A stretch of 64,000 bases of DNA from Solibacillus palustris (GTDB lineage: Bacteria > Bacillota > Bacilli > Bacillales_A > Planococcaceae). The notes beneath the pieces are model-generated. The model saw only the letters and a list, made by a program, of their open reading frames with translations, searched no databases and had not been told where the DNA came from. The position numbers and the translations under genes are program-made. Where the stretch lies: positions 868,001 to 932,000 of the forward strand of contig NZ_JAKZFC010000001.1 in the NCBI RefSeq assembly GCF_022549215.1, written 5' to 3'. This document shows, one piece after another, positions 4,673 through 16,749 of this stretch. The stretch's first letter is position 1. Each line of letters opens with the position of its first letter.

Positions 4673-5353
4673 TTATTGTGCATAATCGCCTGTATAGTTG
4701 ACTAGTGAACAAGAATGCACGCCATCGATTTTATCAATGAGGGTTAAGAAATACGTATTATCATCTACTAAACGAATTTCGACAGTCATTTCAATTAATC
4801 CTCTACGTACCGTTTTTGATTTTAGTTTCGTATTTAATTTGGCTAATACTTTCTTCACATCGCCATGTGCCGTGTCAGAGTATTGAACGACTAATAAATA
4901 TGTTTCTCCACGGATTTTTTTCTTTGAAAGCCATGCTAATGTCGCACCAAATGCTATAGAGCCAATTAATGCTAGTGGGTACATTCCAGCACCAATTGCA
5001 ATACCAGCAGCAATTGCCCAAAACATATAAACAATATCGAGCGGATCTTTTACAGCAGTTCGGAAGCGTACAATACTTAGTGCACCGACCATACCTAAAG
5101 AAAGCACAATATTTGTACTAATAGTCATAATGATGACGGCTGTAATCATTGTCATTAAAACAAAGGAAACATTGTAATTATAACTATAAACAACGCCTCG
5201 AAAACAGATTTTATAGACGTAAAAAATGAACATGCCGACTGCAAAAGAGCAAAGTAAACCTAGGAAAATATCAATATAAGATACACTTGTAAATGACTCT
5301 AAAGAAAGAACACTTTTCTTTATTATATCTTGGAAATTTAAAGACTCATTCAT
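4673..5353 (-). CDS. DUF4956-family membrane protein, last gene of the pel-type operon
   Basis: About 226 residues with roughly four membrane segments in the first 140 (IDIFLGLLCSFAVGMFIFYV, VLMTMITAVIIMT, a LSLGMVGALSIVRFR segment, and MFWAIAAGIAIGAGM). A soluble C-terminal region of about 80 residues follows. The conserved IVRFRTAVKDPLD segment is the hallmark by which I recognise DUF4956. From general knowledge, such proteins often neighbour CotH-kinase and VTC-like genes, which is exactly the arrangement here. Its biochemical role is unknown; a channel or anchor for the VTC-like partner is only a guess. It starts 12 bases after the VTC-like gene and ends at a bidirectional terminator. Confidence 0.8.
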   Translation of the reverse strand: MNESLNFQDIIKKSVLSLESFTSVSYIDIFLGLLCSFAVGMFIFYVYKICFRGVVYSYNYNVSFVLMTMITAVIIMTISTNIVLSLGMVGALSIVRFRTAVKDPLDIVYMFWAIAAGIAIGAGMYPLALIGSIAFGATLAWLSKKKIRGETYLLVVQYSDTAHGDVKKVLAKLNTKLKSKTVRRGLIEMTVEIRLVDDNTYFLTLIDKIDGVHSCSLVNYTGDYAQ

Positions 5354-5365
5354 TATAAAATCTCC

Positions 5366-6073
5366 TTACTTAAAATATTGTATAGTACGTTCTCGGCAAA
5401 GTACGTATTTTGAAATGGAGGAGCGCACAAGACGCTCTGGTTGAACGAGTTGTCGAATCACATCGGGCAAAAATTTATCGAACTTTACTTCTAATACAAG
5501 CTGCTCTGGATACAAAATATTTTCATATATATTACGGTCATCAAATAAATCGATACCGTTGACGCCGGCTTTTAGTTCCTTATCAAACGTAACGCGGACA
5601 TTGCCTGGTTCGAACGTATAAGCAGCGCGAATATAATCGACAATAACGCGTGGTTTAAAATTTCGATATTGTAATGCATGGTAGAAATCTCGAATTAATG
5701 GTTCAGTTCGATTACCAATTTGCTCATATTGACCATTCAATATAGCATCATATTCATCTCGAGAGATTGGTACAGATTCCTTTGAAATAAAATCTCCGTA
5801 TTTACTTTTGCGTTCTAGGTTAATAATGCTGTCAGAACCATTATAAATACGAATTCGATATTTTTCTCGACCGAAAATGCCTTCGTTTTTATCGTAAATC
5901 GCATGATCGTGAACGCCATCAAAATAAAGACTTCGAATATTGTAGCCTTCTTTACTTAAAGAATGCTTATCCATCTTCATAATTGTGGATATACGTGAAA
6001 CGAGCGGAGGCATTTCTAAATAATTAATATAAAATTTGAGCTCATGCCGAAATTTTTTCTCTATAAAATTCAT
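5366..6073 (-). CDS. VTC-domain (polyphosphate-polymerase fold) protein
   Basis: About 235 residues of the VTC/tunnel-metalloenzyme type. Yeast members make polyphosphate from ATP; bacterial members are mostly uncharacterised. Features seen are the N-terminal RHELKFYI, the central REKYRIRIYN followed by INLERKSK, VIVDYIRAAY, and LVLEVKFDKF near the end. These alternating basic and acidic strand motifs are those expected to line the tunnel that holds triphosphate and metal. No membrane segment is present. The start codon overlaps the stop of the pelG-cotH fusion by one base (TAATG), and GGAGGT precedes it. Partnership with CotH and DUF4956 suggests phosphate transfer chemistry; that is inference. 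Confidence 0.8.
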   Translation of the reverse strand: MNFIEKKFRHELKFYINYLEMPPLVSRISTIMKMDKHSLSKEGYNIRSLYFDGVHDHAIYDKNEGIFGREKYRIRIYNGSDSIINLERKSKYGDFISKESVPISRDEYDAILNGQYEQIGNRTEPLIRDFYHALQYRNFKPRVIVDYIRAAYTFEPGNVRVTFDKELKAGVNGIDLFDDRNIYENILYPEQLVLEVKFDKFLPDVIRQLVQPERLVRSSISKYVLCRERTIQYFK

Positions 6074-9000
6074 TATTTTACCTCCACTTGGATTGTCCCG
6101 AAGAAGTTATTACCCTCGTCGTCGGTATACATATCAAATGCAGAATTTGTATGGCCTGATTTGTCTTCAACCCTAACGGATAAATAGTAAATTCCAGGTG
6201 GCAATTCAGTTACTTTTATTTCTGTTTCTCGTATTTTTTCAGCTTTTGCCACAACGTCGGTTAATGCTGGGTCTTTCGCTATCACTACATTGTAGTAAAG
6301 AGTTTCTCCTTGTAAGTCGAATGAAGGCTCCCAACTAAAGATGTGTTTGTTATTTTCTAATACAACTTCTTGATGCATATAAAATGGTTTTGGCTTTTCA
6401 AGATCAGCATAATAACGGTCAAGTGCTTGCTTTGGTGTTTGAACGATTTCAGTTAATTCTTGGTCTAAATTTGATATTTTACCGCCTAAATACTGAATAT
6501 CGGGCATGCGTGAAAGATATTTTTGAGTAGCTGTATATTTTGCTAATTGTTGTTCTACAGTTTGCTCGTTAATATAAGTAGCATATAGTTCTTCAATTTT
6601 ATTTGTTAGCTTATCAACATTTTTTTGGTCACGGAAATAGCGATTGAGCAATATATTTCCCCAATAGTTACTAATGCCCGATTGGTGAGGTTTAATGTTT
6701 AATGTTTTGCGTCCAAGATTCCATCCATCATCGTAATCCCAAGGTAAAATTAGCCAAGTGTTAATATTTAATGGTGAATAGAGATAGAAGTTATTTGCAT
6801 CTGTATCCATATTGTCCATTAAAATATTGACTCCTACCCAAGTTAATAGATTTTCTTCATCGAAATGGTGGTCTATGACATCGTTTATTGGAATTTCATA
6901 ATTATTAATGTCATTCAATAACTGGATTAGTTTGTCATGTTCTTCGCGCCCTTTAATTTCTAAAATGGATTCGAACTTTTGCTTATCATAGGTTGGATCC
7001 GTTTCAGATTTAATTTGCTCAGGATAGCGTGCAAATTCGAAAAATGTAACTTTATATAAATAACCATTTGGGTCGAATAGATGGTTGCGTAAAAACTTTT
7101 TATTAGGCTGCTCCACATGTGTATATAAACCATAGTCTTCGTAAACAGTGGAGCCGGCTGTAGTATCTTTCACATACAGGTGTACAAATTGAGTACGCAA
7201 ACTTGAAATGTTAGGGATATTTTCCATTAAGTCGAAGCTTAATTTGTTACGCACTTTTGTTAAGTCTTTGAAATGCTTATTTAAATTAAGTGTCGTTTGG
7301 TCATTCCAAGTACCAGCGCTATCAAGCAAATCAATTTTATAAGATTTTTGTGGTTGGTTACGAGCTGTATTACCTCGCAAACTGATTTTTGCATTGGCAT
7401 CAGTTGCATCATAGCCAAACATGCCGTTTTTGGGGCCAGCACCATTTGGTAGCCCTTCTTGTAATATAATTCGTAAATTATCCTCACTGTATCGTTCGAT
7501 AACTCGGTTTAAGCCATACCAATCTAAGTTTGGTTTTTCTGAATCAGGTAGCACGGTCATATAAAATGTTTTAATAGAAGAATCCTCATCTCGTTCATAA
7601 ATCCGTTTATCATCAATCGTTATTGTATTAATGACACTAGGGTTTTGAATTTCTTCTAGATTGGATTCAGAGTCTATGTTTTCATTTGAATCGCTACATC
7701 CTACTAATAATACGACAAATGATAAAACCGCTAAAAATTTCACCTTATTTTGTTTAAATGGTTTGAATTTTTTTGTAAGACCAAGTGTCAAACTTGCTTG
7801 AGGACAATACGTGTAATAGTCAATATTGGTTAAAATATAGTACAGGCGCAATAACGAACCGCATAACACGATAAATGACGCTAAAAAAAAGCCTACCCCA
7901 TGCATGGATAATTGCATTGAGAAATAGGTGAGGGTCGCACATAATACGACGAATGCACCTGATAATAATAAAATCCCTTTTCGATCATCAAAATACATCA
8001 ATAAATGGAAGGCTACGAACATTAAAATAAAGAAAAAGTAACCTAGGCAAAGCATGATAAACACATCAAGCTGCTCCATTGTGAAACCGATTCGAGATAA
8101 ATACAATATCCCAAGAGCAATTGCGAGTGTGGTAAATAATAATTGGATTTCTGCTAAAAAACCAATTCTTTTTAAAAGGACTTTTTGCATTTTTTTCTTC
8201 GCAGTTTGAATATTATCATATGTTCCACCTTCTGTAACATTTTTATAATAAAATAAAAAGCGCTCGTAAAAATCGGTTTCAATAATAACGACAAAAAAGA
8301 TTAAAGAAGGCAATACGGATAAATAAGCATAAAAGACTGGGACATCGTAAAACGGCATTAATAAATAGTGTCCTGCTATTACTTGTGAATTATCGGAGAA
8401 GAACCAGTACACTAAATTATGAATATAAACACCAGAATAAACAAGGACGCCGCTAATAAATATAGATGGATACTTTTTAGCAATGGAGAAAAATGCAAAA
8501 TAATTTTTTTTCGCATTGCTAGGAAATACTTGCTCAAAATGATAGCCAGAAAATATAACAATACTTGCAAAACCTATATCCATGCCAAGTAAAGCGATAA
8601 TTACAGGTGAGAAATCACTGTATTGAAATAATAAAAAACTAACAATGATAGATAATAAAGCAGCAATAGCAAAGCTTCTAAAAATGCGTTTATAATCCTT
8701 TAATGCAGACATAAAAACATTTTGTGTCCATATGACAACAAGTTCTACAAAGAAAAGATACGCCACTAATTTATAGAAACTACTTTCTTCTAGAAAAAAT
8801 AGAAAGATTGCTGCAATGATTGCTGCAATTGGTAAAACTACTAATATACTTCCGTAATACGCATTTATGATATCCTCGTATTTTTTTTCATAAATACGGT
8901 CTGCGATATAGCGCGTAACGAGTAAAGTAATTCCAGATGTAAGAATAATCGAAAATACAAAACAATAGGCAAGTGTGGCAATAAATAATTCATTTTCTAA

Positions 9001-9168
9001 ATAGGTAACGCCATTTTGCTTCATTAATAATTGTTGAATGAACACGAGGATTAAACATAAAATCATCGGGCCAATCGTCGTCATTGTCGAATATGCATAG
9101 GCTTGTAGATTATTTACTAACCCTTGCTTTCTATAGAGTTTTCGAAGTTCAAATCCGATTCCTGCCAT
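6073..9168 (-). CDS. pelG: PelG-type flippase/synthase partner fused to a CotH-kinase domain
   Basis: A 1031-residue fusion. Residues 1 to about 465 are PelG: they begin MAGIGFELRKL and show about 12 membrane segments of the MOP-exporter type that moves Pel polysaccharide across the membrane. A hydrophobic stretch at 478-490 follows, ending in a lipobox-like LVGC with Cys491, then an acidic linker. The CotH domain (about 520-940) carries SLRGNTARNQPQKSYKI, MDNMDTDANNFYLY and PWDYDDGWN; CotH kinases phosphorylate secreted spore-coat proteins. Residues 945-1031 resemble an Ig/fibronectin fold. An internal GTG (7743-7741) precedes the lipoprotein-like segment but lacks a ribosome site, so a single polypeptide is likely. 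It starts three bases after pelF. Confidence 0.88.
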   Translation of the reverse strand: MAGIGFELRKLYRKQGLVNNLQAYAYSTMTTIGPMILCLILVFIQQLLMKQNGVTYLENELFIATLAYCFVFSIILTSGITLLVTRYIADRIYEKKYEDIINAYYGSILVVLPIAAIIAAIFLFFLEESSFYKLVAYLFFVELVVIWTQNVFMSALKDYKRIFRSFAIAALLSIIVSFLLFQYSDFSPVIIALLGMDIGFASIVIFSGYHFEQVFPSNAKKNYFAFFSIAKKYPSIFISGVLVYSGVYIHNLVYWFFSDNSQVIAGHYLLMPFYDVPVFYAYLSVLPSLIFFVVIIETDFYERFLFYYKNVTEGGTYDNIQTAKKKMQKVLLKRIGFLAEIQLLFTTLAIALGILYLSRIGFTMEQLDVFIMLCLGYFFFILMFVAFHLLMYFDDRKGILLLSGAFVVLCATLTYFSMQLSMHGVGFFLASFIVLCGSLLRLYYILTNIDYYTYCPQASLTLGLTKKFKPFKQNKVKFLAVLSFVVLLVGCSDSNENIDSESNLEEIQNPSVINTITIDDKRIYERDEDSSIKTFYMTVLPDSEKPNLDWYGLNRVIERYSEDNLRIILQEGLPNGAGPKNGMFGYDATDANAKISLRGNTARNQPQKSYKIDLLDSAGTWNDQTTLNLNKHFKDLTKVRNKLSFDLMENIPNISSLRTQFVHLYVKDTTAGSTVYEDYGLYTHVEQPNKKFLRNHLFDPNGYLYKVTFFEFARYPEQIKSETDPTYDKQKFESILEIKGREEHDKLIQLLNDINNYEIPINDVIDHHFDEENLLTWVGVNILMDNMDTDANNFYLYSPLNINTWLILPWDYDDGWNLGRKTLNIKPHQSGISNYWGNILLNRYFRDQKNVDKLTNKIEELYATYINEQTVEQQLAKYTATQKYLSRMPDIQYLGGKISNLDQELTEIVQTPKQALDRYYADLEKPKPFYMHQEVVLENNKHIFSWEPSFDLQGETLYYNVVIAKDPALTDVVAKAEKIRETEIKVTELPPGIYYLSVRVEDKSGHTNSAFDMYTDDEGNNFFGTIQVEVK

Positions 9169-9171
9169 TTG

Positions 9172-10584
9172 CTAATCCCCTCCTAATCGAGCATAAATCT
9201 CTTTGTAGCTATTAATAAAATCTGAACGCTTATACAAATTGGCAACTCGTTGGAAAGCATTTGAGCCAAATTTCTGACGTAAAGTTTCATTTTTACATAG
9301 TGTGATGACATAGTTCGCCATTTCTTCATAGTGCATAACCGGCACAATATAGCCTGCTTGTCCGTAAATATCATTTGTTCCTTCGATTAACTCGCGACAT
9401 CCGCCAACATTTGTACAAACAAACGGTTTCGAACAAGCAAAGCCTTCTAAAATAGCTAAAGGCTGACCTTCACTAATACTTGATAAAATTAAGATATCAA
9501 GATTAGCTAAATAGTCTTTTATTTGTACCATACCTGTAAAATGAAGGTTTTTCAAATTTAAAATTGAAACCAATTGCATACATTCTTCGTAATAATCTGA
9601 ATCCTCCTCGGTAGGTCCCATAATATAAAGTTCTACGTTTGGCAACTTTTGCTCAACTAAGGCAAACATTTGAATCATCATTTTAATATCTTTAATTGGT
9701 ACAACACGAACAATGGCGCCAATTCGGATTTTATCATTTGGTAATGTGCGTTGGATATTTTGAAAGTCACTCACTTCAATCCCATTTGGAATAATACTAA
9801 TTTTTTGAGGGTCACAACCAAGCTCAATTTGAATTTCTTGATTGCGTTTAAATAACGTAATTACCTCATCTGCAAGGTTGTATATGGAATTGGATAATGT
9901 GTAAAAATAATTAATCCATAAATCTTTGAAATAGCCCTTTACCCAGTTGGCCTTAATAATTTCTTCCTCGCGTTCACGGGAATAAATACCATGCTCAGTT
10001 AAGATTAAAGGCTTGTTATAAACAGCTTTTGCGAGCGCTCCTACGACACCCGCATAGCCTGTTGAAACAGAATGATATAAATCAGCTTTTGGAATGTCCC
10101 CACGAATAATTAAAAATAAGGGTAAGATCATCGAGCTTACAGTCCAAAATAATTCTGTATAAGGAACTTGTGAATATTTTGTCTGAGCCAAATCTTGAAT
10201 GATGTCATAGAAATCTTTACTGGATAAAAATTCGGCAACATTTCGATATTGGTCACTACGAATAAATTGAAATAAGTTTGGCCAATTTACTTGCTCCTCA
10301 CCACTTACTAAAGCGTATAAATCTTGTTTTTGTTCAGGGGTTAATCCTAATCGTTTTCCCCATTTTGCTTGCTCATTTAAATGAGCATCTAGAAATACTT
10401 CATGTACTTGAATAAGGTTTGGTGGCAATTGATATTTGAATTTACCTTGTTGTTTCTTTTCCGCAGCAATTGCAAAAATAATAAATTCGGTATCGGGCAT
10501 TGCGTTCATTAGAGAATGAATCCAACTGGAAACGCCACCTGCTACATATGGATATGAACCTTCAGCAATTAAACAAATTCTCAT
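9172..10584 (-). CDS. pelF: PelF-type family 4 glycosyltransferase
   Basis: Cytosolic GT-B glycosyltransferase that polymerises the Pel polysaccharide from a UDP-sugar. The 470-residue protein starts MRICLIAEGSYPYVAGGVSSW, characteristic of PelF. It contains a conserved TEHGIYSREREEEI loop and the C-terminal donor-binding region with EGQPLAILEGFA and VGGCRELIEG (the EX7E-type motif of GT4 enzymes). Position between the deacetylase gene and pelG matches pel operons. Family knowledge: PelF prefers UDP-linked N-acetylhexosamine, which fits the epimerase encoded upstream. Spacing to both neighbours is under ten bases, indicating one transcript. Confidence 0.9.
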   Translation of the reverse strand: MRICLIAEGSYPYVAGGVSSWIHSLMNAMPDTEFIIFAIAAEKKQQGKFKYQLPPNLIQVHEVFLDAHLNEQAKWGKRLGLTPEQKQDLYALVSGEEQVNWPNLFQFIRSDQYRNVAEFLSSKDFYDIIQDLAQTKYSQVPYTELFWTVSSMILPLFLIIRGDIPKADLYHSVSTGYAGVVGALAKAVYNKPLILTEHGIYSREREEEIIKANWVKGYFKDLWINYFYTLSNSIYNLADEVITLFKRNQEIQIELGCDPQKISIIPNGIEVSDFQNIQRTLPNDKIRIGAIVRVVPIKDIKMMIQMFALVEQKLPNVELYIMGPTEEDSDYYEECMQLVSILNLKNLHFTGMVQIKDYLANLDILILSSISEGQPLAILEGFACSKPFVCTNVGGCRELIEGTNDIYGQAGYIVPVMHYEEMANYVITLCKNETLRQKFGSNAFQRVANLYKRSDFINSYKEIYARLGGD

Positions 10585-10593
10585 ATTTGTACC

Positions 10594-12405
10594 TCATTTA
10601 AAAATAATTTCAAAATTCTCTGAAGTTGCTTTAATTAAATACGTATTATCGTCTATTTTTTCGTAAGAGATGTTTTTCGTTGTTTTAATGGTTTTCTCTG
10701 TACGAAGGATAAAGTCGAGCTGTGAAAAGAATGGTTTAATATGCCCAATAATTTGCTCTTCAGTTTGTTCGAATGTTACGGATGAATTAAGTGTGCTCGC
10801 TTGTTTTAACGCAGCATTTGTTGCTGTTGTAGCATGTAACCAAGGATAACGTTCATGAATATCACCAAAAAATTGTTCAAATTCTTCAAACATACTCGTC
10901 CAACCACCTTTACTGCGGTCTTCACTAATTACATCATCCGGATGGATAAAATGAGATAATACACCTAAGCTCGTAATGGCGTTTACAATTTCCCATTCAT
11001 TTGTTTCGGTAGGGAAGTAGCCTGAAGAAATTCTAGGCATTTCAACGATGGCATCTTCGCTCACTTCGAACTCTTGAACATAGGATCGATTCGTTATGTC
11101 TTCGGAATAAAGGGATGCGATTGTAATCAAGTTAGGGAGCGCTTCTTTTATAATACTTCGTGCTTCTTTAGATAAAACATTGGAAGGTGGAACATATGAA
11201 GAAACCGTATATGAAGGAAAGGCCTTTTTGGTATACGTCTCGACCTCTCTAAGTGCTTGCTTCATATGATCAATGGATTGCCAATGATTATAACCGAATG
11301 TTTTCGAAACGGCTGAGTCCAACGTTAACGACTGGTGATTATAGCCATGATAGCCAATTTCACCACCACTATTAATAAGTTCGCGCCCAAAGCCTACTAA
11401 ATATGTAAGCTCAATATCTTGCGAGTTATTGAAGGGGGGGGTGACTTTGTCTTCATAGGATTCGATTAATGCGCCTGTATACACTAAATTAAATTTTTGG
11501 GAAGCTTCCAACATATCGGGCCACCAAACATTTCGATAAAAGTTAGGTAAATCTAGTTCAAATTCCTTGTAAATAATTTCATTTCTTCCTTTAGCAATGG
11601 GTGCGGGGAAATCATCGATAAAAAAGGTTTTTGAGTTAAAGATAGGATAGATAAAAGGATCTCCCGGCATGCTTAACATCCCGGCAATTACCCCACGAGA
11701 ATATTTTTCAGCCGCAATATTCAAGTTAAGTATAATAAAATTGCCCTCACCAAATTCTTTTTTCCATAAAAGAGGTACACCAGATAAATTTTTCATAGCA
11801 GGTTCAATCGTACTTTCAATCGTTACGTTTAAGCTACTATCGTTTAGGCTTCCTTCTAAAAATACTCTTCCTTTTGCCCCAATTAGTACATTGGATGTTA
11901 CTTCAATACCTGTTGTTGTTGTAAAATCCGAGTAATCAATGATCCCTAATTGGCGGTTAAGAATTTCGAATAGGGCATCAGGCTCAAGTGTTGTCATTGA
12001 AAATAAATTGCCACCTGTTTCGACAAAGCTTTCAATTTCATCGATTGTTCCAACATCATCTAAATATGGTGTTGCAAGTAAAATATTAGGACACTTATTG
12101 AATTCAACTTTACTCAGCTCTGCATCGTATGTTTTATATGGTTTTTTTAAATATTGAAGTGTTTTTTCAATATTGGATTTAAGCTTTTCATATTCTTCGT
12201 TATACAAAATACAGTATTCTGCATTCGAAATTGCCTGTACGTGTTTTGTAGTAGGTTGTAATACTTTAGAGCTAACGGTTAAATCCAGCTCATTCTTCAC
12301 AGAATTTAATATAAAATCTGAGCGCGAAAGTTGTAAAATAACCCCACATAGAAATATTAGTATTAAAATGTAAAAAATCTTTTTATTATTTAATAATCCG
12401 TTCAT
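10594..12405 (-). CDS. pelA: PelA-type membrane-anchored polysaccharide deacetylase
   Basis: About 603 residues from the ATG at 12405, where the product starts MNGLLNNKKI and runs into one membrane anchor. A longer form from 12453 is possible but would have no ribosome site. An N-terminal alpha/beta region (about 80-280) precedes a deacetylase domain. The presumed metal site is FFIDDFPAP, followed by GGEIGYHGYNHQS, supplying Asp and two His. A VPPSNVLSKEARSII segment follows. Pseudomonas PelA also has a glycoside hydrolase domain; none is seen here, matching the deacetylase-only form known from Gram-positive pel operons. It would partly deacetylate N-acetylgalactosamine at the cell surface. 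It overlaps the end of pelE by 20 bases. Confidence 0.82.
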   Translation of the reverse strand: MNGLLNNKKIFYILILIFLCGVILQLSRSDFILNSVKNELDLTVSSKVLQPTTKHVQAISNAEYCILYNEEYEKLKSNIEKTLQYLKKPYKTYDAELSKVEFNKCPNILLATPYLDDVGTIDEIESFVETGGNLFSMTTLEPDALFEILNRQLGIIDYSDFTTTTGIEVTSNVLIGAKGRVFLEGSLNDSSLNVTIESTIEPAMKNLSGVPLLWKKEFGEGNFIILNLNIAAEKYSRGVIAGMLSMPGDPFIYPIFNSKTFFIDDFPAPIAKGRNEIIYKEFELDLPNFYRNVWWPDMLEASQKFNLVYTGALIESYEDKVTPPFNNSQDIELTYLVGFGRELINSGGEIGYHGYNHQSLTLDSAVSKTFGYNHWQSIDHMKQALREVETYTKKAFPSYTVSSYVPPSNVLSKEARSIIKEALPNLITIASLYSEDITNRSYVQEFEVSEDAIVEMPRISSGYFPTETNEWEIVNAITSLGVLSHFIHPDDVISEDRSKGGWTSMFEEFEQFFGDIHERYPWLHATTATNAALKQASTLNSSVTFEQTEEQIIGHIKPFFSQLDFILRTEKTIKTTKNISYEKIDDNTYLIKATSENFEIIFK

Positions 12406-13297
12406 TTGCGTTAAACACCCCAGACCAATATCGTACATAATTAAGAGCTTCATAAGAAAGCGTAATTGGCGCAGCTTTTAACGCCTCAATTTCGTGCCTT
12501 AGATTTTCAACAGCAAAAGTTTCAAAATAAATTTTCATCGCTAAAATATAGGCTTGTTCATTTAAAGGGTATTGCTGCTTGAATAATTTCACTGTTTGTT
12601 CTGCAGCAATGGTATCTTGAAATGCGAGTTCCATGTGTATTTTGTCAATAAACGTTTTTTCTGTCGCATCTTCATTGTTAATGATTTGCTCCATTATTTG
12701 AATGAACTGTGCTTGGTATTTTTTTGTCGATTGCCCATCTAAAAATCCACTATTTAAATATTCTTTTATAATGTTTGCGTATGTGTGAGCCAAAGTTGAA
12801 TTGTTTCGGTTTTGGCTGTATTCTACCTCTAACTTTTGCATGAGTAAGGTTAACTTTCGTTTTACTTCAATAACTGCGGTTACCGCATAGTGAGATGTTT
12901 CCGTATCTTCATTGACTACTGCTGTTTTTAAGACATCGATATATTGGAGTGCATCTTCCTTTAATATATCGATTAATACTTTTCTTCTAACCGATACATT
13001 ATTTACAAGGAGTGCTTCTTCGATGGAAATAATATTTAATTCGTTTTGCTTTTCAATTTTGCTGATCGAATTTAAATCCTCAAGTTGGAGGTCTTCAACT
13101 TGGGCATCCAAATAATTACCGAAAAAGTGCTCATCTTTTTTTAACCATTTATTTGGCCAAACGGTAGGGATGAACCAACCGATAATTGGCAAAAAAGTGA
13201 CGATCGCCAATTTTAATAGCCATTCCTTTATATTTCCTTTACTTATAAGGAATGTAGCGATGATCGATAATAATAAATAGATTCCAAAATAAATCAT
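12386..13297 (-). CDS. pelE: PelE-like membrane protein with helical-repeat domain
   Basis: 303 residues. Two short hydrophobic helices at the N-terminus (IYFGIYLLLSIIATFLIS and LAIVTFLPIIGWFIP) precede a soluble, mostly helical region resembling TPR-type repeats. The best-looking repeats are near the C-terminus, around NEQAYILAMKIYFETFAVENL. Sequence is weakly conserved in this family, so the call rests on architecture (two membrane helices plus helical repeats, as in PelE) and on position between pelD and pelA. PelE is thought to be part of the inner-membrane Pel synthase complex. The start overlaps the pelD stop by four bases (ATGA), implying translational coupling. Confidence 0.72.
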   Translation of the reverse strand: MIYFGIYLLLSIIATFLISKGNIKEWLLKLAIVTFLPIIGWFIPTVWPNKWLKKDEHFFGNYLDAQVEDLQLEDLNSISKIEKQNELNIISIEEALLVNNVSVRRKVLIDILKEDALQYIDVLKTAVVNEDTETSHYAVTAVIEVKRKLTLLMQKLEVEYSQNRNNSTLAHTYANIIKEYLNSGFLDGQSTKKYQAQFIQIMEQIINNEDATEKTFIDKIHMELAFQDTIAAEQTVKLFKQQYPLNEQAYILAMKIYFETFAVENLRHEIEALKAAPITLSYEALNYVRYWSGVFNANERIIK

Positions 13298-15477
13298 AGA
13301 TTATACACCTTCTCATCTACTGCGTGCTCAAAGCCAGCATTATAGAAGCGTTTTAATATAAAGGGTAAATCGACTTCATTTGTATTCGAAAGTAATACAT
13401 GTAATTTTGAATGATTGTACCCTAAGTAGTCTGTTTCTCGTAGCATGTTCCCTAATGTTTTGGATATATCTATTAAGTTTGCCTCTTCTACAGTGAATGT
13501 TAATAAATGATAGGGGATGCCGTAAAGGTCCTTTGCCTCTTTTTTTGCAGCCAGGATTTCTTTAAATGTATTCATTTGCAATATATTCGTACTTTCAATA
13601 TAGCGATTGTCTTCTGAAAGTTTAATAAACTCAAATGCACGCGATAATGAAGATTGGATTAATTGTTTCACTACGATAAAAAGATTTTCATAGTACTGTG
13701 AAAAGTTCTCAAAAGGTAATTTTCCAATTGAAATAATGGCTCTAATTTCTTGATCGTAAAAAATTGGAGCTACCATTAATGGTACGTTTGGCTCTAATGC
13801 ACGATTAATAAAAGGTTGACCAGTCGCAATAATTTGCTGGATATAAGGTGTTTCATCAACTTTTAAAGAAGTTTGAAGCTGCTCATTTCTAGTGAACTCC
13901 GAATGTGCCGTTAAGCGTAAATAGGTATGATTTTTATTTAAAACATAAATGGAAACATCTTTACTATTCATGACACGTTCAACGACCATTACAGTATTCG
14001 TAAAGATTTTTTCGGGTTCTAAATTATCCAATTCTTTAATTAAAGAATAAATTTTACCGAAGCTGTCTTCGTTGTTTTTCACTCGAAACTGTAATTCCTC
14101 ATTTACTTCACGTACTTCAGTATGCACGTCTTCTAAAAACTGATAGCGTACTTGTAGTTCTTGAAGCTGCTCATATTGTTCGGAAATTTTGTCGTTTTTT
14201 CGTTGTACAGAATAGCCAACTAAGAGACCGATGAATAGAAACGTAACGATTTGGAATAAAAATGTCGAGTCATAGAGCAAGGATATGGCTTCACGACCAC
14301 GATGAAGATAATCGTAAACTAATAATAAAAATGAAAGAACAACACTTGTAAATGATTGTTGATTCCCATAAATAGAACCAATCGCCATAATATAAAAGAC
14401 TCCAAAAATAAAAATAGACATAGAAGGTAAATTTAATTGCAGTAACAAAAAGCTAATAAGAATGAATATTAATGTATTTTCTAAGTACGATTTTGATTGA
14501 ATTAACCAATTAGGAAACTTATATTTTTTTTTTGCCTGCCGAGTTTCCTTTTTCTTTCGTTTTTGCTGTTGTTCTTGTGCCCAAAGATATGTATTGGCTA
14601 ATCCCTCATCAATTGTGTACATTGGAACCCAATCTAAAGTAGTTTTTACTTTAGTATTATTTAATGAAGAATGAAGAATATCTCCTTCTCTTGCATTTGT
14701 ATAAGTTGTTGTAAGAGACATACCTTGAGCTTTCAATATTTCTACTAGCTGAAACACACTTGTTTGAGTATTTGTTGATAAATTATATGTGCCTGTAATA
14801 AAACTTTGTGTGGCGCGGAAAATGGCATATGCGACATCTTTTACATAAATAAAGTCGCGTGTTTGTGAACCATCACCATGTATTTCAAGGGTTTCGTTTT
14901 GATGTGCCTTTGCAATAAATGTTGCAACGACACCTCCTTCACCTTCGCTTGTTTGTCTCGGGCCATAAACATTCGAAAATCGGAAATTAATGACGTCAAT
15001 CTTGTGTTGGGTTTCCCAGTTAGAACAATATTGTTCGCCAACCCATTTGCTCAGTCCATAAGGTGCTATCGGTTGAGGGATTTCCGTTTCGTTTAAAGGT
15101 AAATTCGTATTGTTTCCATAAATAGCTGCGGATGATGCAAAAACAAATTTTTTAACATTGTATTGTTGGGCCAGTTGTAACATATTAATTAAGCCAAGTA
15201 TATTTGCTTCAGCATCATATATCGGGTTTTGAATTGAATTTGCAACACTAACTTGTGCAGCAAGATGAATAACAAAATCGAATTGGTAAGATGCGAAAAT
15301 CTCTTTACATTTAGGGTCTGTAATCGAAGTGATATGTTTTTTATGCTTTATCGATACATTATCTTGTTTTCCAGTGGAAAGATTATCAAGAATATGTACT
15401 TCATAACCTTCTTTATAAAATTGCTCGGCAACATGCGAACCAATAAAGCCATATCCTCCAGTTATGAGCACTTTCAT
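13294..15477 (-). CDS. pelD: UDP-sugar 4-epimerase fused to PelD c-di-GMP receptor
   Basis: A 727-residue fusion from the ATG at 15477, chosen over the TTG at 15483 because AGGAGGG lies eight bases upstream. Residues 1-305 are an extended SDR epimerase: TGGYGFIGSH for NAD, SSAAIYG, and the catalytic YGLSK at 140-144. Residues about 330-425 hold four membrane helices, then a coiled coil (430-475), a GAF domain (about 480-600) and a degenerate GGDEF domain (about 620-727). GGDEF itself is gone, but the inhibitory-site RETD at 680-683 is kept, as in the c-di-GMP receptor PelD. The epimerase would supply UDP-N-acetylgalactosamine, like the separate PelX of some pel loci. No glycosyltransferase or cyclase activity is expected. 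Confidence 0.88.
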   Translation of the reverse strand: MKVLITGGYGFIGSHVAEQFYKEGYEVHILDNLSTGKQDNVSIKHKKHITSITDPKCKEIFASYQFDFVIHLAAQVSVANSIQNPIYDAEANILGLINMLQLAQQYNVKKFVFASSAAIYGNNTNLPLNETEIPQPIAPYGLSKWVGEQYCSNWETQHKIDVINFRFSNVYGPRQTSEGEGGVVATFIAKAHQNETLEIHGDGSQTRDFIYVKDVAYAIFRATQSFITGTYNLSTNTQTSVFQLVEILKAQGMSLTTTYTNAREGDILHSSLNNTKVKTTLDWVPMYTIDEGLANTYLWAQEQQQKRKKKETRQAKKKYKFPNWLIQSKSYLENTLIFILISFLLLQLNLPSMSIFIFGVFYIMAIGSIYGNQQSFTSVVLSFLLLVYDYLHRGREAISLLYDSTFLFQIVTFLFIGLLVGYSVQRKNDKISEQYEQLQELQVRYQFLEDVHTEVREVNEELQFRVKNNEDSFGKIYSLIKELDNLEPEKIFTNTVMVVERVMNSKDVSIYVLNKNHTYLRLTAHSEFTRNEQLQTSLKVDETPYIQQIIATGQPFINRALEPNVPLMVAPIFYDQEIRAIISIGKLPFENFSQYYENLFIVVKQLIQSSLSRAFEFIKLSEDNRYIESTNILQMNTFKEILAAKKEAKDLYGIPYHLLTFTVEEANLIDISKTLGNMLRETDYLGYNHSKLHVLLSNTNEVDLPFILKRFYNAGFEHAVDEKVYNL

Positions 15478-15498
15478 TAGCAAATCCCTCCTATCGCT

Positions 15499-16749
15499 TT
15501 AATACAATTTACAGCTTGCAAAAGAAAAAAGAAATGATTCTTTATTTTGTGTAAATGAAATTTTTGGATTACTAGTATCATTAATGTGGTGACTATAACG
15601 GCACATGCGATACGTGTTTCCTGTTAATGACAAATTTTTAATGTTTTGTTGTAAAGTGATTTCATAGTAGCCTTGTTTTTTTGTATCATTCGCAAAAAAC
15701 TTGTTGTTTTTTACTTCAATATTCGAAGCTCCACCATTGCTACTGCTTTTAGAACCGCCAATTACGAGCCCAGCCTTATCATTGCGTTTTATGGTGTTAT
15801 TTTGAATAATAATGTTCGTTGTAGCACTTGATGTATTTTCACTACCGATAGAAATTCCGTAGTTATTGTTTTCGACATAATTATTAAGAACTTTTATATG
15901 AGCACCACCATCTACATAGATTCCAGCCGCAGAGTCATCCCCCTTATAAGCAGGATTATTTTTAGAAGAGTGTCGAGTCACCTTGTTATTAGAGATTGTT
16001 CCGTAGCGGGCAAAATCTGTACAACCTTTTTCACTACAAGCATTGTAGTAACCAGCAACATCAATCCCAATATTATTATTGTTATATAAAGTGTTTTTGT
16101 CGATTAAAAAATTTGTGACATTCCCACTAAGTGTTAGACTTTCACTGCTCCCTAGGGTTAAGTCGTGCAGTCGGTTGTTTTGAATTACAATATTTTCAAT
16201 AGGGTTTGGACTATTGCCGTATACTAATATTCCATGGGCATTTCCTTTTATATGGTTGTTGGCAATATCGTGAATTATATTGTCTGTTAGGTAGATGTGA
16301 TTACCGAATCCCTGGATTAATATGCCTGCTGGATAAAAATCATCATCATCGGTCGTAATGTTTCGTATTTCAAATCCTGAAATTTTCAAGTAGTTACTAT
16401 TACGAATAGAAAATGCGGCTTGTTTTGACTCGTTTTGATCCCGCTTTGCTCCATCTAGTACTACTTTTTCGTTTTGATAGGGACGAATTGTAATAAACTG
16501 TTTTGAGTCTGTGAATTTGTTTTCTATTGTTAGCAACTCATAATAAACGCCATTACGAACTAAAATTTCATCTCCATGATTACTCTCATTAATCGCATGT
16601 TGAATTGTTTGGTAAGGTGAATCAATTGAACCATTTCCCTTTATATCGCTACCATTTGTTGCAACAAAAATTGATTTAGTTGCAAAAGCAGAACTAGGGA
16701 TTAAAAAAAGCATAAGGATGAAAGCTACGTTAATTACAAAACTACGAAT
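15499..16749 (-). CDS. Secreted right-handed beta-helix protein, first gene of the pel-type operon
   Basis: About 416 residues if translation starts at the ATT at 16749, giving IRSFVINVAFILMLFLIPSS then AFA before the mature TKS, a full signal peptide. AGGAGGAG lies eight bases upstream of that codon. The first conventional start (ATG at 16713) has no ribosome site and cuts the signal peptide. The mature protein opens with a DUF1565-like segment (FVATNGSDIKGNGSIDSPYQ) and then shows repeated strand turns rich in Asn (IQNN, VKNN, ISNN), as in NosD/pectate-lyase beta-helices. Substrate unknown; a role in modifying or cleaving the polysaccharide is inferred from operon position. It lies 21 bases upstream of the epimerase-pelD gene. 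Confidence 0.82.
   Translation of the reverse strand: MRSFVINVAFILMLFLIPSSAFATKSIFVATNGSDIKGNGSIDSPYQTIQHAINESNHGDEILVRNGVYYELLTIENKFTDSKQFITIRPYQNEKVVLDGAKRDQNESKQAAFSIRNSNYLKISGFEIRNITTDDDDFYPAGILIQGFGNHIYLTDNIIHDIANNHIKGNAHGILVYGNSPNPIENIVIQNNRLHDLTLGSSESLTLSGNVTNFLIDKNTLYNNNNIGIDVAGYYNACSEKGCTDFARYGTISNNKVTRHSSKNNPAYKGDDSAAGIYVDGGAHIKVLNNYVENNNYGISIGSENTSSATTNIIIQNNTIKRNDKAGLVIGGSKSSSNGGASNIEVKNNKFFANDTKKQGYYEITLQQNIKNLSLTGNTYRMCRYSHHINDTSNPKISFTQNKESFLFSFASCKLY

Follow-up and report, generated by a model that had tools for sequence, protein, structure and literature searches.

The window analysed here is a 64,000-nucleotide stretch of Solibacillus palustris (contig NZ_JAKZFC010000001.1, positions 868,001 to 932,000), and our subject is a gene in its pel cluster that encodes the Pel exporter PelG and a CotH-family kinase-like protein in a single open frame. 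The fused frame runs from 9168 to 6073 on the minus strand, encodes 1031 aa from an ATG at 9168, and closes with a stop codon at 6075-6073 that has a 1-base overlap with the start of the next gene (TAATG); the plus strand over 6073..9168 is full of stops. An earlier note on this DNA had read 6073..9168 as a PelG-CotH frame, and both the frame and the two Pfam domains were found, the strand being minus.

The PelG part, residues 1-454 (7807..9168; all features given here lie on the minus strand), is a full-length match to PF16933 (E 2.7e-123, profile positions 1-452 of 452), and the CotH kinase domain, residues 595-910 (6439..7386), matches PF08757 (E 4.2e-59). The two are joined by a basic stretch, then a hydrophobic one, then L-V-G-C491 and finally a tether of variable sequence. 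The basic stretch forms a positively charged n-region that is predicted to be cytoplasmic (residues 455-477; 7738..7806), followed by the putative hydrophobic h-region of an internal signal peptide (residues 478-490; 7699..7737), which the structure model renders as a helix over 474-488 at low confidence. The hydrophobic stretch ending in LVGC, described in the earlier note as joining PelG to CotH, was seen: L488-V-G-C491 (7696..7707), with Cys491 encoded by TGT at 7698-7696, has the form of a lipobox and is a predicted Lgt/LspA site. The tether (residues 492-519; 7612..7695) is flexible and variable, with a block predicted local distance difference test (pLDDT) score of 29 to 40 and at least 20 changes at 23 of its 28 columns, and behind the CotH domain a C-terminal region (residues 911-1031; 6076..6438) is beta-rich from 936, with strands over 936-1030 in the model.

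Taken together, the predicted model and alignment-averaged hydropathy give PelG 12 helices, helix 7 being weak by hydropathy alone. Foldseek matched the PelG part to MATE (E 3.1e-6), WzxE (E 1e-4) and MurJ (E 7.5e-5), that is, to the MOP-type 12-helix fold, and the CotH part to 5jd9 (E 2.8e-12). The mean numbers of lysine and arginine residues in the stretches between helices 2-3, 4-5, 6-7, 8-9 and 10-11 and in the tail after helix 12 (residues 442-478, 50 rows) were 3.3, 3.6, 4.6, 6.2, 1.9 and 6.1, compared with means of at most 1.5 in the intervening stretches. From this alternation both ends of PelG are predicted to lie inside, the next hydrophobic segment therefore leads out, and CotH is predicted to be outside, so that the topology check proposed in the earlier note came out, as a prediction, in favour of an external CotH domain.

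The lipobox of the junction is strictly kept. Cys was found at position 491 in all 53 rows of fused proteins, three of which (L011-L013) repeat named loci and were dropped from later counts, and the lipobox rule held in 68 of 68 distinct junctions (114 fused frames across all loci examined). On a tree of 49 rows, built without the junction and spanning 13.0 substitutions per site, Cys491 never changed, whereas the remaining 40 columns of 475-515 changed 25.1 times on average, and no column within 458-519 but that of Cys491 was unchanged; the -3 and -1 columns were slow on the same tree (5 and 8 changes), position -3 being Leu in 44/50 rows and position -1 Ala or Gly in 49/50. No other cysteine follows residue 455 in the window protein, so that a disulfide within CotH, a role we considered, is unlikely to explain the conservation of Cys491. 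A rule for an internal lipobox with a soluble stretch behind it, drawn up once the fusion was known, was also run over 1.10 Mb of DNA (the window and L034-L080, pel neighbourhoods throughout rather than whole genomes): of 130 open frames with at least four hydrophobic cores 45 matched, all of which carry the acidic-K motif that marks the PelG-CotH fusion, and no other polytopic frame matched.

Separately encoded CotH proteins provide the comparison. A lipobox is present in 39 of their 47 distinct N-termini and a Cys-less hydrophobic anchor in 8, counting tandem second copies and leaving out repeats, frames without a domain start and N-termini shorter than 30 residues; the 39 include a piece of an interrupted gene (L079) and one of a gene cut by a contig end (L216). 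The Cys is thus dispensable in a separate CotH, whereas every fused junction examined has it. The lipobox-less separate CotHs with a hydrophobic N-terminal anchor are those of L014, L113, L114, L116, L117, L118, L158 and L159, and the six lipobox-less genomes present in the PelG tree (as L113, L114, L116-L119) cluster together. In the split relatives L074 and L078, the segment homologous to the junction stands at the N-terminus as a normal signal, with an ATG of its own and a ribosome-binding site recognised by eye. The fused junction has the basic n-region, the hydrophobic h-region and the lipobox with invariant Cys of a lipoprotein signal, but it departs from one in position, lying at residues 455-491 with no conserved internal start rather than at the translated N-terminus. 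To judge from its sequence, the junction looks like a live lipoprotein signal and the lipobox no relic; where the earlier note saw a former lipoprotein signal peptide joined in frame, the joining agrees with the N-terminal form in L074 and L078, but the word former does not survive the conservation of the lipobox and of Cys491.

We consider it likely, reading from the sequence, that PelG, the Pel exporter, and a kinase-like lipoprotein of the CotH family are made as one polyprotein, which is split at Cys491. We also think it probable, with somewhat less assurance, that the 12-helix exporter acts as the leader for a lipoprotein, its internal type II signal, retained in all fused junctions examined since a single ancient fusion, being lipidated and cut by LspA so that an extracellular kinase-fold enzyme is delivered in equimolar amount at the exit of the polymer it modifies. 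In this scheme the ribosome would make a single PelG-CotH chain, PelG would insert with its 12 predicted helices and both ends inside, and a 13th hydrophobic segment, the predicted internal type II signal peptide, would thread CotH across the membrane. Lgt would then lipidate Cys491 and LspA would cut before it, as the lipobox and its conservation suggest, leaving PelG with a short C-terminal tail and a CotH lipoprotein present 1:1 with PelG where Pel emerges. The weakest step concerns what CotH does there: its substrate is probably the polymer or a protein of the surface, to which it would add phosphate or some other modification, and the operon's VTC and DUF4956 proteins may take part. Both Lgt and LspA are encoded in the genome, the Lgt search being not fully sensitive, as it gave no match in a Bacillus subtilis control.

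The active site of the fused CotH is well kept. The motifs PWDYDD and RGNTARNQPQKSYKI, which the earlier note had reported as intact, are both present in the domain. D788, N793, D811 and D813 are retained in 49/49 fused rows, in motifs that align with Bacillus cereus CotH (5jd9), and residue 608 is K in 33 of these rows and R in 16. We assume for the individual aligned residues the functions that we take them to have in 5jd9; kinase activity itself is predicted from sequence and fold. The fused domain shares its fold and aligned active-site motifs with the B. cereus spore-coat kinase (5jd9/5jda), but the latter was solved as a stand-alone protein of 359 residues, whereas the fused CotH is part of a 1031 aa chain.

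Several points weigh against the polyprotein reading. A type II signal placed inside a chain, after a protein of 12 helices, is a non-standard substrate, and lipidation and cleavage at Cys491 are putative, deduced from the sequence. The structure model (mean pLDDT 82.4, predicted template modelling score 0.52, junction pLDDT mostly <50) leaves the position of CotH relative to the membrane and to the PelG half unfixed. The uncharged run before the Cys (median 17 residues, range 11-22 in the fusions) is long enough for a lasting transmembrane anchor, and the fused rows are non-independent, with a single fusion origin, although the tree is deep. In the strictest form of the internal-start test (a Shine-Dalgarno match of at least 6 bases) the junctions lie slightly above chance, at 1/50 against 0.7% of random windows. 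The supply of ATP to an extracellular kinase is a difficulty, here as for any extracellular CotH. Finally, SIR_1594 of Streptococcus intermedius, a secreted CotH-domain protein of the pel operon, is not required for Pel: according to PMC12345266, its deletion lowered Pel without abolishing it and reduced aggregation in artificial sputum medium by more than half, the small drop in buffer being non-significant. SIR_1594 is described as a separate gene (PMC12345266), whereas the CotH of the window is fused to PelG.

The alternative that survives best, though we hold it to be unlikely, is that the 13th helix stays uncut and CotH is a permanently tethered extracellular domain of PelG, with Cys491 lipidated but uncleaved or kept for some other reason. 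The fused clade contains no split rows in the 80-row PelG tree, so the covalent link may itself be useful; the eight Cys-less anchors among separate CotHs indicate that a plain anchor works, and the uncharged run could span the membrane. A protein already held by 12 helices, however, has no need of the Cys or of Ala or Gly at -1, yet both are kept. Since a mere tether would need neither lipobox nor Cys491, processing at Cys491 and release of a CotH lipoprotein are the more likely outcome, and the lasting tether to the exporter proposed in the earlier note is disfavoured by the 68/68 lipoboxes and the absence of change at Cys491.

It is very unlikely that the gene instead yields two products, the full-length protein and a CotH lipoprotein made from a start within the gene such as the GTG at 7743, where the earlier note had suggested a second product. 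That GTG is real and immediately precedes the hydrophobic stretch, 5/53 rows have a start codon inside the gene whose Shine-Dalgarno match reaches 5 bases or more, and the slight excess of 6-base matches mentioned above points the same way. Against this, the GTG has a ribosome-binding-site score of 0, and among the other 52 rows a start codon is found equally far from the Cys in L080 alone (ATG); on these grounds we reject the GTG as an internal start. In 13/53 rows the 35 codons searched contain no start codon. In the stretch of 26 codons that would hold the start of an internal lipoprotein, 6/50 junctions have a start with a Shine-Dalgarno match of at least 4 bases vs. 31.5% of random windows in the same genes, and 3/50 have one with at least 5 bases vs. 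8.4%. Both values lie below those of the random windows, and the 50 fused junctions revealed no conserved internal start. At the pelG start itself, a match of at least 4 bases is present in 46/50 rows.

A cytoplasmic CotH, with the hydrophobic stretch forming a re-entrant or peripheral helix, is hardly probable: the low model confidence at the junction would allow it, but the lysine and arginine pattern puts 442-478 inside and is followed by a hydrophobic segment and a lipobox. A lipobox is used on the outer face of the membrane. The chance that the fusion is an artefact of sequencing or assembly, through a lost stop codon or a frameshift, is as good as nil and this explanation counts as refuted, for although one of 47 named loci (L079) is interrupted within its PelG part and 8 of 21 distinct split pairs are two genes in one frame with a single stop between them, dozens of genomes carry the uninterrupted fusion, and over Cys-36 to Cys+30 the other two frames contain a stop in 47/50 and 40/50 rows and the fused frame in 0/50.

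Many relatives carry the fusion, as was apparent when it was sought along the line set out in the earlier note. It is uninterrupted in 9/61 genomes (the window's own and 8 of 60 relatives), and in a named collection 44/47 loci lack an internal stop, the remainder being L074 and L078, with separate genes, and L079; this collection was searched with two short patterns from fused proteins and is therefore biased towards fusions. The absence of an internal stop in these two sets excludes a frameshift between the two parts, which the earlier note had named as a possible refutation, and a run of seven A near 7770 in the window gene, considered as a site of slippage, is occupied by other bases in relatives. 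Among 261 genomes of the window's family there were 24 strong matches, of which 18 have the full uninterrupted frame, 5 have separate genes and 1 has PelG without a CotH match; in a second family (394 genomes) 37 of 55 strong matches have the full frame, a count that leaves out G1146, whose match starts only at residue 152. The class sample (398 genomes) gave PelG over the cut-off in 52, of which 7 are fused, and the phylum sample (398 genomes) in 13, with a frame >600 aa in the window's own genome only; these samples overlap. Fusion-bearing named taxa include species of Psychrobacillus, Rummeliibacillus, Ureibacillus, Sporosarcina, Brevibacillus, Paenibacillus, Cohnella and Saccharibacillus. 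All 53 fused rows fall into a single clade (support 100/98) of the PelG tree, which has 80 rows with two identical pairs, so that one fusion origin is enough and several independent fusions are not needed.

The eight split pairs in which pelG and cotH share a frame with a single stop codon between them are L087, L112, L113, L114, L118, L120, L121 and L137; about a third of split pairs would be expected to share a frame by chance. Loss of one stop between such genes could have been the birth of the fusion. The interrupted L079 (Paenibacillus cisolokensis) has a stop or frameshift within the PelG part and is either an error or a pseudogene. In L138 (9594-11358) and L139 (8480-10202), from genomes G002 and G013, a second, separate CotH gene lies directly downstream of the fusion; it has a lipobox and intact active-site motifs of its own and looks like a tandem duplicate of the CotH half. 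In G318, an 818-aa frame that we considered as another fusion turned out from its locus to be a PelG frame that reaches back over pelF, with a separate cotH after it.

The nearest precedent for PelG-CotH, by analogy, appears to be FbcH of Bradyrhizobium japonicum. This cytochrome b/c1 polyprotein combines in one frame a polytopic membrane protein and, after it, an exported protein whose signal is internal and cleaved. FbcH uses signal peptidase I and carries a cytochrome, whereas the signal of PelG-CotH is of type II (lipoprotein) and its enzyme has a kinase fold. Measured against the definition of an FbcH-type polyprotein, the gene has the single frame and the internal signal, and its cleavability is predicted; no paper on FbcH processing was among the literature matches listed. 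In ABC importers such as OpuABC, a binding domain is fused to the permease, so that an extracellular domain, a signal-like helix and a polytopic protein are combined; there the tether is lasting, whereas in PelG-CotH a lipobox is strictly kept.

PelG-CotH is built from known families and lies in a known kind of operon (PMC7112168). Gram-positive pelDEADAFG clusters, as described there, carry accessory cotH, polyphosphate-polymerase and DUF4956 genes, and they resemble the window's cluster in the kinds of neighbours, in an SDR-extended PelD and in a cotH contiguous with the pel genes. They differ in that cotH is one of several accessory genes in streptococci, clostridia and bifidobacteria, whereas in the window it is fused to pelG; the word 'fusion' is absent from the main text of that paper and its single 'fused' refers to a His tag. 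Neither a PelG-CotH fusion nor a processed internal lipobox in a polytopic protein was named in the titles and abstract openings of the literature matches listed, though a supplementary figure of PMC7112168, PMC12345266 or PMC7112194 could show a fusion, and the same matches held nothing on a single old origin of the fusion with a strictly kept internal type II signal.

Should LspA act on an internal signal that follows a protein of 12 helices, searches for lipoproteins confined to the N-terminus would miss such proteins, and bacteria would have a further means to set the stoichiometry and place of a surface enzyme. Because the fusion couples CotH physically to Pel export, it opens a direct test of the role of CotH in pel operons: substituting Cys491 alone would distinguish tethering from release, and altering a single active-site residue would distinguish the presence of CotH from its activity.

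The gene lies in a pel cluster of the Gram-positive type, on one strand, with genes for an SDR/PelD-like protein, a protein at the PelE position, a DUF2194 protein, PelF, the fusion, a VTC-domain protein and a DUF4956 protein. PelF (9172..10584; NF038011, E 9.5e-116) is encoded directly upstream of the fusion, which places this pelG in a pel operon beside pelF. The next gene downstream encodes the VTC-domain protein (5366..6073; PF09359, E 3.5e-37), followed by the DUF4956 protein (4673..5353; PF16316, E 2.6e-12). Upstream of pelF lie the DUF2194 protein at the position of the PelA deacetylase (10594..12453; PF09960, E 2e-142) and the protein at the PelE position (12386..13297), which has no Pfam match and has a homologue at the same place in five same-genus loci (L138-L142). 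The gene at 13294-15483 joins an epimerase (SDR) domain (PF01370, E 2.6e-61) to a hydrophobic, PelD-like part with a weak GAF match (GAF_3, E 1.2e-4, under the cut-off), an arrangement that fits the SDR-extended PelD of PMC7112168. Scans for DNA repeats and promoters gave nothing useful (46 promoter-like sites vs. a shuffled mean of 59.6). Upstream of the pel genes on the same strand, 15499-16713 encodes a Beta_helix repeat protein that could act on the polysaccharide. Three more short CotH genes, with frames of 365-368 aa, occur elsewhere in the genome (G000:C12:406297-407223, G000:C12:494715-495641 and G000:C1:1395285-1396211) and are, we presume, of the spore-coat type.

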